Shown piece by piece: positions 21,292-45,125 of a stretch of DNA of 64,000 bases. A program made the position numbers and the translations under genes. How positions within the stretch are numbered: position 1 is the stretch's first letter; every line of letters starts with the position of its first letter. The notes under the pieces are model-generated. The model worked only from the letters and a program-made list of their open reading frames with translations. It did no database searches and was not told the origin of the DNA. This DNA is from Microbispora amethystogenes (GTDB lineage: Bacteria > Actinomycetota > Actinomycetes > Streptosporangiales > Streptosporangiaceae), in assembly GCF_016863015.1 (NCBI RefSeq), contig NZ_BOOB01000024.1:62001-126000 (forward strand), in the 5' to 3' direction.

Positions 21292-21317
21292 GGGCGCCGT
21301 CGTGCCATCAGGCGCCC
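21292..21317. terminator. Stem-loop spanning the PKS stop codon
   Basis: GGGCGCC (21292-21298) pairs with GGCGCCC (21311-21317); the PKS stop codon lies in the loop. It could act as a terminator between the convergent regulator and PKS genes. Confidence 0.3.
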
Positions 21318-24300
21318 GCCGGTTCGCGGTCTCCGGCCAGCCGGTCCCGCAGGTGGTCGACGAGCGCCGCGGGTGTCGGGTGGTCGAAGGCGATGCTGGC
21401 GGGCAGGGCCAGCCCGCTGGTGGCCGCGAGGCGGTTGCGCAACTCCACGATCATGAGCGAGTCCAGTCCGAGCTCGAACAGGGTGGCGTTCGGCTCGATC
21501 CAGTCCGCGGCGTGACCGCTGACCTCGGCGACCTGCCCGACGACGAGGTCGAGCAGGAGCGCGTCGCGTTCGTCCGGTGAGAGACCGGACGGCGGCAGCG
21601 CTGTCATGACATCCGGCGCGGCCGCGGCCTCCGGCGTGGTCATGGTCCCGGTACGCGTCGCCGCGAGGTCCAGATCGGCCGGCACGACCAGCGGCTCCGC
21701 CAGGGCGAGCGCGTCGTCGAACAACCCGAGCCCGTCCTCGACGGACAGCGGAGTGATCCCGGCGCGCCGCATCCGCTCCAGGTCGGCGTGACCGAGGCGG
21801 CCGCCCATCCCGTCGGACTCCCACAGCCCCCAGGCGAGCGACATCGCGGGGAGCCCGAGCGAGTGGCGGTGACGGGCGAGGGCGTCGAGGAAGCTGTTGG
21901 CCGCCGCGTAGTTCGCCTGGCCCGCGGTGCCGAGCACACCCGCCACGGAGGAGAACAGCACGAAGGCGTCCAGGTCGAGCCCGCGGGTGAGCTCGTGGAG
22001 GTGCCAGGCGCCGTCGGCCTTCGGCCGCATGACGTCCTCGACCTGCCGCGCGGACATGGCGGTGATCACGGCGTCGTCGAGCACGCCCGCCGCGTGGACG
22101 ACCGCGCTGAGCGGGTGACTCACCGGGACCCCGGCGAGCAACGCCTCCACGGCGTCGCGGTCGGCGACGTCGCAGGCGACGGCCCTGACCTCCGCTCCGA
22201 GGCCGGCCAGATCGGCGACGAGCCGGTGGGCGCCGGCTGCGGCGTCGCCCCGGCGGCTCGCCAGGATCAGGTGGCGTACGCCGTGCTCGGTGACGAGATG
22301 GCGGGCGAGCAGCGCGCCGAGGCCACCGGTGCCGCCGGTGACGAGCACCGTGCCGTGGGGATCGATGCGCCGGCCGGTCCGGCCCGTGATCAGGGGGATC
22401 TGCACCGGATCCGGCCGATGGAGTATGCCGTCGCGGATGGCGATCTGCGGTGCGCCGGTGGCCACCGCCGCCGCGATCGCGTCCTGGGACGCGGGGGCCC
22501 GGTCGACGTCGACGAGCGTGAACCGGCCCGGATTCTCCGCCTGGGCCGAGCGGATCAGGCCCCAGGACGCGGCGTTGGCGAGGTCCTCCACCGGGTCGCC
22601 TGGCAGGGCGGCCACCGCGTGCCGGGTGAGAAAGACCAGCCGTACGCCGGCGGGGGCGTCGTCGGAGAGCCACCGCTGCGCGAGTTCCAGCGTGCGGCGG
22701 GTCGCGCGGCGAGCAGCGGCGGGCGTGCGGTCGTCCGACGGCAGCGGCACGACCACCGCGGCGGGCGGCGCCCCGTCCGTCGCGACCGCGGCCCACGCGG
22801 CGGAAAGATCGCCGTCGGGCACCGTGACGACGGGTCGCGGCTTCTCGTACGGCGGCTCGACGACGGGCCAGGCGACGCGGTACAACGTCCCGCGTCGGCC
22901 GGCCGCACGCCCGAGCTGGTCCGGCGCGATGGGCAGCAGATGCAGCGACTCGACGACGACCGCCGGGTGGCCGGTCTCGTCCCACCCGGTGATCGACACC
23001 GCTCCCGGGCCGGCGGGTGAGATCCGGATCAGGAGCTCACGCGCGCCGTGCGCGGAGAGGGCGACCCCGTTCCAGATGAACGGGATGCGTGGCCGCCCGG
23101 TGTCGTCTCCGGTGCCGGCTCCGCTGCCGTCTCCGGGACCGGCGACCAGGTCGACGAGCCGCTCCGGCGCGCCGTCCAGGCCGAGCCCGTGCATCGTCGC
23201 GTCGAGCAGCGCGGGATGCGGGCCGAACAGGCCGGGATGCAGGCGCCGGTCCTCGGGCAGCCGAAGCTGGACGTAGAGGTCGTCGCCGTGCCGGTGGGCG
23301 GCGCGGACGCTCTGGAACACCGGACCCCATCCGTAGTGGCCCCGGTCGTTGAACCGCCGGTAGAAGTCGCCGACCTCGATCGGGATGGCGCCGTCGGGGA
23401 CGCCGGCGGGCCGGTCTGTTCTCGCGGGCCCGCTCGGCGACGACGCGACGCCGCCGGGCCGGGCCGGGCCGAGGACGCCGGTGGCCAGTTGCGACCAGGG
23501 ACGCCCGCGAGCCTCGGCCTCGCCCCTGCACCGCAGCGAGAACTCCCGTCGCCCGGCCGGACCGGCGGGTCCGGCCCGCAGCTGCAGTTCGACCCTGCCG
23601 TCGGGCGGCACGATCAGGGGGGCCTTGTGCGTCAGCTCGACGACCTCCGCGCACCCGACCTGCCGGGCCGTCCACGCGGCGAGTTCCAGGAACGTCACGC
23701 CCGGCACGACGACCCGGCCGTGCACCTCGTGGTCCGCGAGCCACGGTTGCGTACGCGCGGACAGCCCGCCGGTGAACAGCATGCCGCCGTCGTCGAGTTC
23801 GATCGCCTGGTCGACCAGCGGATGGCGCTCCGCGGCCCGCGAGACACCGGAGGCGTGGCTCCGGCCGGCCGCCGGCAGCCAGAACCGCCGCTGGTCGAAG
23901 GCGTATGTCGGAAGATCGACGGGCGTGCCGCGCCCGGCGGGGAGGACGTTCCGCCACACGACGGCCTGGCCCTGACAGTGAGCCTCGGCCAGCGCGGCGA
24001 TCAGGCCCCGCGCCGTGTGGTGGCCGGGCCGCACGACCGCGATCGGCCCGTCCGGCCGATGCGCTGCGTTCGGCTGGTCGGATGCTGCCGGGTCGTCCTC
24101 GGTGAGCGTGCCGGGTGTGTCGGAACCGAGCACGAGGACACGCCCCGCCCCGCTCTCGACGAGCAGCCGAGTGCCCTCCCATGTTCCGGTGGTGGCCTGG
24201 CGGGTCCAGTGCCCGGGGTCGGCCAGAGCGTCGGCGGTCACGAACCGCCCGGTCGGGCCGTGGACGATCGGAATGGCGGGCTCACTGAACCGGGTGCGCC

Positions 24301-44318: not shown

Positions 44319-44357
44319 TCCCGGCGCGGCGGCGGCCCCGACCCTGGAGGAGCGTGC

Positions 44358-45125
44358 ATGTCCCTCATATCCGATAGTTCGCTGATCTTCGCCCGGCAGA
44401 TGCGGCTGTCGCTGCGCTCCCCGGCGTGGCCGATCATCGGCCTGTTCCAGCCGGCGCTCTACCTGGCCTTCCTCGGCCCGCTGCTGGTCAGCGTGGCCGG
44501 AGCCGGGGTCGACGGCCTCCCGGCCGGGGCGGCGTGGCGGTTCTTCGTGCCCGGCCTGCTGATCCAGCTCGGCCTGTTCGGCCCCCTGTTCGCCGGTCTG
44601 TCCATCATCGCCGACCTGCGCTCGGGCGTGTTCGAGCGGATGCGGGTCACCCCGGTGAGCCGTTTCGCCCTGCTCGCCGGCCGGGTCATGCGGGACACCG
44701 TGGTCCTGCTCGTCCAGACGGTGGTCCTGCTCACCGTGGCGTACGCCTTCGGCCTGCGCGCGCCGCTGGTCGGCCTCCTCCTGATGTTCCTCTTCGTCGC
44801 GGCCATCGCGGTGGGGCTCTCCGCCCTGTCGCACGGGCTCGGCCTGCTCGTGCGCAGCGAGGAGTCGTTCACGCCCCTGCTGAACGTGGCGGCCATCCCG
44901 CTGCTGCTCCTCTCCGGGATCCTGCTGCCGATGACCCTCGCGCCCCAGTGGCTCGACGTCATCTCCCGGCTCACGCCGTTCCGATACATCGTGGACGGCA
45001 TGCGCACCGCCCTGTACGGCGACTACACCGGCTCGGTCGTGGTGACGGGCGCCGCGGTCGCGGTCGTCACCGCCGCGGTCTGCCTGGTGCTCGGCGCCCG
45101 CCTCTTCTCCCGGAGGCACGCGTGA
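44358..45125 (+). CDS. ABC-2 type exporter permease (DrrB type)
   Basis: A 255-aa protein with six hydrophobic segments. The ABC-2 signature is present around LLLLSGILLPMTLAPQWLDVISRLTPFRYIVDGMR. It partners the upstream ATPase, with a 39-bp gap. It is the last gene of the plus-strand biosynthetic operon; its stop codon lies inside the stem of the following terminator. Confidence 0.92.
   Translation: MSLISDSSLIFARQMRLSLRSPAWPIIGLFQPALYLAFLGPLLVSVAGAGVDGLPAGAAWRFFVPGLLIQLGLFGPLFAGLSIIADLRSGVFERMRVTPVSRFALLAGRVMRDTVVLLVQTVVLLTVAYAFGLRAPLVGLLLMFLFVAAIAVGLSALSHGLGLLVRSEESFTPLLNVAAIPLLLLSGILLPMTLAPQWLDVISRLTPFRYIVDGMRTALYGDYTGSVVVTGAAVAVVTAAVCLVLGARLFSRRHA

Follow-up and report, generated by a model that had tools for sequence, protein, structure and literature searches.

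We propose that a gene cluster of the soil bacterium Microbispora amethystogenes probably directs the synthesis of an N-acylated dehydro-β-alanine (3-aminoacrylate, enamide) derivative, with the chain of its own polyketide synthase (PKS) as the most likely acyl donor. The cluster lies in a 64,000-nucleotide stretch (hereafter the window; G000:C24:62001-126000, contig NZ_BOOB01000024.1) of an 8.13 Mb genome and consists of two divergent operons split at 36130–36342. A free-standing condensation (C) domain and the PKS are read leftwards; a building-block cassette, an AcpS-type phosphopantetheinyl transferase (PPTase) and an ABC pump are read rightwards. The cassette comprises a KASIII enzyme (KS3a), an ATP-grasp ligase, a BtrK-like decarboxylase, an acyl carrier protein (ACP), a second KASIII-fold protein (KS3b), a small relative of the acyl-CoA dehydrogenases (X) and an acyl-CoA dehydrogenase (ACAD). 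An earlier note on this DNA had set out the order, strands and positions of these genes, and all were recovered as open reading frames (ORFs) in the window; the C, PKS, KASIII, ATP-grasp, decarboxylase, ACP, ACAD, PPTase and ABC pump assignments were borne out by Pfam. The genes are as follows:

21308–34345, − strand: type I PKS of 4345 aa, KSQ-AT-ACP / KS-AT-KR-ACP / KS-AT-DH-KR-ACP (Pfam, translation, motif alignment with the Microbispora genomes G131 and G151)
34342–36189, − strand: free-standing C domain overlapping the PKS start (Pfam PF00668, E value 1.6e-21; likely start codon at 36129; motif SHxxxD)
36130–36342, no strand: divergent intergenic region between both operons (sequence)
36343–37290, + strand: KS3a, KASIII, proposed N-acyl transferase (Pfam KASIII C-terminal domain, E value 4e-17; PDB alignment)
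37301–38686, + strand: PreATP-grasp/ATP-grasp ligase, proposed to load Asp (β-carboxyl) onto the ACP (Pfam)
38683–40005, + strand: BtrK-like pyridoxal phosphate-dependent decarboxylase of the Orn/DAP/Arg type (Pfam; best PDB matches BtrK 2j66/7ru7, E value 2e-93)
40037–40309, + strand: free-standing ACP (Pfam PF00550)
40319–41170, + strand: KS3b, protein of KASIII fold lacking the catalytic Cys, putative partner of KS3a (profile, model, fold comparison)
41167–41751, + strand: X, ACAD-related protein without the middle β-barrel, proposed partner of ACAD (profile and fold comparison)
41744–42973, + strand: ACAD-type enzyme with a proposed BolQ-like function (Pfam; PDB; catalytic Glu column)
42976–43344, + strand: AcpS-type PPTase (Pfam PF01648; NCBIfam)
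43341–44318, + strand: DrrA-type ABC exporter ATPase (Pfam; NCBIfam drrA above cut-off)
44358–45125, + strand: ABC-2 exporter permease of a DrrA/DrrB-type pump (Pfam)

In the pathway that we envisage, AcpS would arm the ACP, the ATP-grasp ligase would load Asp onto it via the β-carboxyl group, and the BtrK-like enzyme would decarboxylate Asp-ACP to β-alanyl-ACP. KS3a/KS3b would transfer the acyl group of a donor thioester to the amine, forming an amide bond with no extension of the carbon chain, and ACAD together with the mini-subunit X would dehydrogenate the N-acyl-β-alanyl thioester to the enamide. In Microbispora, the chain carried by the final ACP of the three-module PKS (5-hydroxyhex-2-enoyl, judging by the domains) is the most likely acyl donor; to build it, the sole intact acyltransferase (AT) would need to supply each of the three PKS ACPs. 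The free C domain would release or further couple the product, and the DrrAB-type pump would export it; an N-(short polyketide acyl)-3-aminoacrylic derivative is thus the most likely product to leave the cell. Asp use, decarboxylation and dehydrogenation are taken from published relatives, so these steps are put forward by analogy.

The cassette recurs as a unit in other genomes. Used as a query against 394 genomes of the class, the ligase returned full-length matches (E value <1e-90) in six, including that of the window, the remainder (195 genomes in all) being weak, mostly partial and extending down to E value 0.001; a scan of named genomes gave 133 relatives, and the best 80 of these were retained. 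Together with the window, G121, G131, G151, G215 and G300, these make 86 loci, L051 and G131 being the same contig. No ligase relative was found in the viral contigs searched. Six cassette genes were scored (KS3a, ligase, decarboxylase, KS3b, X and ACAD; the ACP could not be scored reliably): ligase and decarboxylase were present at all 86 loci, KS3a at 75, KS3b at 74, X at 62 and ACAD at 60. All six occurred at 60/86 loci and the order KS3a-ligase-decarboxylase-KS3b-X-ACAD was found in 60/60 of these, which argues that the arrangement is not due to chance. Both KASIII genes were present at 73 loci and neither at 10, with KS3a alone at two and KS3b alone at one; X accompanied ACAD at 60/60 loci and stood without it at two. 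The 26 incomplete loci represent real absences, contig ends or misses.

Some incomplete loci have a character of their own. Nine Amycolatopsis loci (L082, L083, L084, L090, L094, L098, L101, L102 and L104) hold ligase and decarboxylase only, in most cases with a non-ribosomal peptide synthetase (NRPS), a KAS II-type synthase, an MMPL protein and a second carrier alongside, suggesting another use of the ligase/decarboxylase pair. At L110 (Streptomyces rimosus), the cassette stands with diaminopropionate genes and an NRPS, neither X nor ACAD was detected, and a saturated β-alanine version might be made.

Neighbouring gene families were clustered around 84 of the loci, G131 and G151 being excluded, and a single representative was annotated for each of 20 families; the class counts that follow are lower bounds from a rough gene caller, which missed the C domain of the window itself. 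A FAAL-type ligase accompanies KS3a at 20/84 loci, an NRPS with OCD and/or PALP (a diaminopropionate signature) at seven, and an AurF-like oxygenase with an LCM-type methyltransferase is found at ten, including L059 of Streptomyces achromogenes and L075 of Streptomyces albireticuli, the latter species being the producer of enteromycin, an N-acyl-3-aminoacrylic acid. A modular PKS family was called at five loci only: the window, L049, L050, L051 and L052, the last from a Streptosporangiaceae metagenome-assembled genome. The cassette occurs beside at least four kinds of putative acyl supply (FAAL, NRPS with diaminopropionate genes, AurF/methyltransferase and PKS). C domains were called on the opposite strand at 14/84 loci and on the same strand at seven, all seven with FAAL. 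Eleven of the 14 had no PKS, FAAL or NRPS called in the 10 kb flanks; they come from Micromonospora, Umezawaea, Nocardia, Catenulispora, Actinacidiphila and Saccharothrix and belong to the same half of the ATP-grasp tree as the window. In that tree, the Microbispora loci group with the AurF/LCM and divergent C-domain loci at a node support of 1.0, apart from the FAAL and NRPS loci, several other inner nodes being weak (support down to 0.08). Beside the window cassette itself, no AurF or LCM family gene was called or seen in Pfam scans of the window genes, and no NRPS, OCD or PALP gene was called.

Individual loci add variants of this picture. Micromonospora loci L053, L054, L055, L057 and L066 hold two tandem C domains, the cassette, AcpS and an ABC pump, with no PKS, NRPS or FAAL called in their flanks, and are perhaps the minimal complete form. 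Loci L126 (Microbispora oryzae) and L050 show one Microbispora species with two cassettes, one linked to the PKS, the other of a distant FAAL type and accompanied by a C domain of its own. A halogenase-like WxWxIP motif lies beside the cassette in G300 (L044:8474-10072), L078 and L096; the gene in G300 looks like that of a flavin halogenase, and halogenated enamides may be possible. Pyrrole formation, which the G300 gene and the motif matches in L078 and L096 brought to mind, was put aside on the ground that the cassette order is that of dehydro-β-alanine (Dba)-type loci.

When aligned to the model, the KS3a sequences retain the catalytic Cys in 75/75 and the His in 75/75, and carry His at the position of the FabH Asn in 75/75. 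The window KS3b, whose closest named relatives come from Microbispora (96 % identity), has no Pfam match; its KASIII fold was established by profile, structure model and fold comparison, in agreement with the Cys-less KSIII-like protein of the earlier note. Two short genes of the enteromycin-type locus L061 appear to encode carrier proteins, the second being a likely acyl donor within the cluster, and no C domain was called at any of the ten AurF/LCM loci (10/10); on these grounds, the KS3a/KS3b pair appears to be the best candidate for forming the N-acyl bond. The 194-aa X protein likewise has no Pfam match, and all of its profile matches at E value ≤1 (27/27) are acyl-CoA dehydrogenases, with which fold comparison agrees; its description as an ACAD-C-like protein was therefore sound. 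X adjoins ACAD, so that two subunits related in sequence and fold are encoded together, and the catalytic Glu column of ACAD holds Glu in 58 and Asp in two of 60 aligned sequences. From these sequence features, we propose that X and ACAD form a two-subunit dehydrogenase.

The PKS contains three KS, three AT, two KR, one DH and three ACP domains, and Pfam found no thioesterase domain in it. The three modules described previously are present. The gene begins at 34345 with MSHAEPIAV, not at the GTG of a mechanically reported 4945-aa ORF, the first 600 codons of which run in another frame through the C-domain gene. KS1 is a KSQ, with Gln in place of the catalytic Cys in the window, G131 and G151 (alignment) and in L049, L050 and L052 (regular-expression match). 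The AT motifs read GHLDGE (AT1), GHSIGE (AT2) and GAGSGE (AT3; GVGSGA in G131), and AT1 and AT3 lack the catalytic Ser in all three full PKSs aligned (window, G131 and G151); between the KSQ and the next KS of L052, a carrier motif was seen and no AT motif. The earlier note had overlooked both the KSQ and the ATs without catalytic Ser, as well as the probable role of the KASIII enzymes as N-acyl transferases. Its C6 hydroxy-enoyl chain fits the motifs of the DH and both KRs, which are intact; were AT2 to serve every carrier, the result would be 5-hydroxyhex-2-enoyl. Macrolactam β-amino starter logic (VinN/VinO) was set aside in view of the PKS having its own KSQ module.

Cassette and PKS also co-occur within the genus. 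KS3b and the DNA of the C gene and PKS start are both near full length in the same 6/15 Microbispora genomes (G000, G131, G151, G397, G399 and G403); in the other nine, KS3b had no match and the PKS gave short cross-matches only, so that cassette and PKS/C behave as one unit. The C gene overlaps the PKS and the two are therefore probably translated together. The motif SHxxxD, which keeps the second His and the Asp of HHxxxD, is present in the window and in 24/26 family members called, the two misses being partly truncated. For this C domain, release of the enamide, formation of an ester with the 5-hydroxyl or coupling of enamide and polyketide may be envisaged.

Asp, β-alanyl and dehydro-β-alanyl are likely intermediates in the window, by analogy, because the neighbours of related cassettes match the enteromycin and enamidonin product classes. 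The ligase of the window is of the ATP-grasp type, and Asp is its putative substrate on the strength of these neighbours. According to passages of PMC7756342 on bolagladin, Asp is proposed to be placed on the ACP BolC by BolO and decarboxylated by the BtrK-like BolN, followed by N-acylation by the KASIII homologue BolM or BolP and dehydrogenation by the ACAD BolQ; deletion of bolQ gave β-alanine analogues, and a bolN mutant was not rescued by β-alanine. For AFC-BC11, passages of PMC12186527 report Asp loading, on-carrier decarboxylation and FAAL acyl transfer rebuilt in vitro, loss of production when the KASIII-like genes afcL and afcO were deleted, and a peptidyl chain held by the KASIII-like AfcL (Cys/His/Asp). 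The portion of PMC11204786 consulted gives a dehydro-β-alanine unit and two diaminopropionate residues as common to olenamidonins, enamidonins and autucedines. PMC11204466 lists a region of Cellulosimicrobium funkei with 12 % similarity to the enteromycin cluster, which would be in keeping with the cassettes L115 and L118 of that species. The sequence of loading, decarboxylation and desaturation on the ACP suggested in the earlier note thus stands in outline, by analogy with bolagladin and AFC-BC11, with Asp to enamide a likelier course than Glu to γ-aminobutyrate (GABA). Its remark that the gene set is not recognisable as a described pathway is not supported, since this chemistry has been described for bolagladin and AFC-BC11. 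Our literature searches returned no known product for the whole gene set and no paper linking Microbispora to the cluster, most subscription journals lying outside their coverage.

The rival that we take most seriously, though we still think it doubtful, places the PKS downstream: a cellular fatty acyl group would make the N-acyl-dehydro-β-alanyl unit, which would then be the starter of the polyketide or be coupled to it by the C domain. The overlap and probable co-translation of the C gene and PKS agree with this, as do the eleven loci of the same tree half that have divergent C domains and in whose flanks neither a PKS nor a FAAL or NRPS family was called; against it, a KSQ module makes its own starter and this one is kept in the lineage, and the second short carrier-like gene of L061 is a likely acyl donor within the cluster. 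That PKS and C domain form a separate pathway merely adjoining the cassette is the least probable explanation. The PKS family was indeed called at only 5/84 loci, but C domains of the same family stand on the opposite strand beside KS3a in the 11 loci that lack a PKS, KS3b is found with near-full-length C/PKS-start DNA in the same six Microbispora genomes, and the arrangement is the same in G131 and G151. A butirosin-like route, in which Glu would be loaded by its γ-carboxyl, converted to GABA-ACP and 4-aminocrotonyl-ACP and joined to the polyketide, gains from the decarboxylase being closest in the PDB to BtrK, the L-glutamyl-[BtrI ACP] decarboxylase, and from the use of an ATP-grasp ligase and not an adenylation (A) domain, as in butirosin, where BtrJ has the ligase role. 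We nevertheless judge it unlikely. The nearest cassettes include enteromycin-type loci and the distant tree half includes enamidonin/autucedine-type loci, whose expected products contain dehydro-β-alanine, so that the GABA unit of the earlier note loses its footing; the window decarboxylase and ligase are 64–65 % and 53–56 % identical, respectively, to those of the AurF/LCM loci L059 and L075, the presumed product of which carries a C3 aminoacrylate, and the KASIII–ACAD combination has published parallels in Asp/Dba pathways. Very unlikely, in our view, is a PqsBC-like role for KS3a/KS3b as a condensing heterodimer that adds a malonyl-derived carbon pair to give a ring or β-keto amine instead of an amide, given that loci expected to yield a simple N-acyl bond at this position retain the pair and that the FabH Asn is replaced in 75/75 KS3a sequences.

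Several points weigh against the pathway that we envisage. The eleven C-domain loci with no PKS, FAAL or NRPS called indicate that the cassette can work without a PKS and that the PKS may act after N-acylation, and a KSQ without a working AT needs loading in trans. The Cys-His-His triad also occurs in the chain-extending KAS I/II enzymes, so KS3a could still condense carbon; at four distant loci (L096, L100, L119 and G300 (L044)), KS3b retains a Cys adjacent to the position of the FabH Cys and is therefore not Cys-less throughout the family. The preference for Asp over Glu derives from relatives, and the enteromycin- and autucedine-type cassettes are putative assignments from neighbour genes. 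In the passages of PMC12186527, the N-acyl bond of AFC-BC11 is made by a FAAL, not a KASIII enzyme, and for both bolagladin and AFC-BC11 it is an A domain of the VinN type that loads Asp, where the window has an ATP-grasp ligase (PMC7756342, PMC12186527).

A bolder form of our proposal, which we offer as speculation and consider unlikely in its entirety, would make the cassette a portable enamide synthase, with an amide-forming KASIII heterodimer, in which KS3a has Cys-His-His and KS3b is mostly Cys-less, and an ACAD whose second subunit has lost the flavin-binding barrel; in Microbispora it would draw a C6 chain from the PKS, a single intact AT would load the three ACPs, including the one served by the KSQ, and the C domain would close a ten-membered enamide lactone or a dimer thereof.

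Three regulatory genes flank the operons:

16643–19873, − strand: LAL-type AAA_16/LuxR regulator, probably a cluster member (Pfam AAA_16, GerE; family called at 13/84 loci including the window)
20178–21236, + strand: TrmB/LuxR-type regulator, probably a cluster member (Pfam TrmB, GerE; family called at 12/84 loci including the window)
45145–47493, − strand: HTH/NB-ARC/TPR regulator, possibly a cluster member (Pfam; adjoins the cluster in G151, as in G131, where the alignment is partial)

The two left-hand regulators probably belong to the cluster because their families recur at other cassettes; the TrmB/LuxR-type gene is also kept in G151 and G131. Further left lie molybdopterin oxidoreductase and nitrate reductase beta-type genes (9966–15282) and a GH127 β-L-arabinofuranosidase with a LacI regulator and an MFS transporter (5368–9964). 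To the right are a NADAR-domain protein adjoining a sigma factor and an oxidoreductase (50095–50685) and a gene with the Pfam Ferritin-like domain PF12902 (53426–54751).

N-acyl-3-aminoacrylates are rare in nature: the passages of PMC7756342 (2020) name only the enamidonins beyond the compounds of that study, with AFC-BC11 following later. Our comparison suggests that one conserved cassette lies behind these compounds in actinobacteria, giving a handle with which to look for enamide antibiotics as yet unseen, and that KS3b and X, for which there is no Pfam model, are likely subunits of an amide synthase and a dehydrogenase. If the Microbispora branch functions as we propose, polyketides could be designed to carry enamide units, and it would offer for study a PKS whose three modules share one intact AT.

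Among known systems, butirosin shares with the window the trio of ATP-grasp ligase, ACP and decarboxylase (BtrJ, BtrI and BtrK) and differs in its Glu substrate, neither a KASIII pair nor an ACAD being known with that trio. PqsBC and the KASIII enzymes ChlB3/CerJ resemble the window in the fold of KS3b and in the logic of paired or acyl-transferring KASIII enzymes, whereas the window KS3b has no Cys at the active-site stretch and the chemistry of the pair is a proposal. The enamidonin/autucedine-type loci (OCD, PALP and NRPS; assigned from their neighbours) have the cassette genes, and the same order where complete, but fall in the other half of the ATP-grasp tree and have an NRPS with diaminopropionate genes and no modular PKS called. 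The enteromycin-type loci (L059, L075 and others, likewise assigned) share the cassette, its order and the tree half; there, by the enteromycin literature, an AurF-like oxygenase and an O-methyltransferase supply the acyl unit, and no PKS or C domain was called. The AFC-BC11 cluster, as far as described in the passages of PMC12186527, has Asp on one carrier and an on-carrier decarboxylase, as proposed here, and KASIII-like enzymes, a BolQ homologue and no modular NRPS, as in the window, but uses the A domain AfcQ, the FAAL AfcA for the N-acyl bond, three Dba units and Lys at release. The bolagladin cluster of Burkholderia gladioli (PMC7756342) shares the free ACP, BtrK-like decarboxylase, KASIII homologues and ACAD, which there lead to N-acyl-dehydro-β-alanine. 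It differs in having a VinN-type A domain in place of the ATP-grasp ligase and two KASIII enzymes without Cys (Ser and Thr), where the window KS3a keeps its Cys; an NRPS follows, and the passages of that paper mention no PKS or X-like subunit. The building-block cassette is thus of a described, though little-studied, kind, and its coupling to a divergent C domain and to a PKS with a KSQ and a single intact AT looks new.

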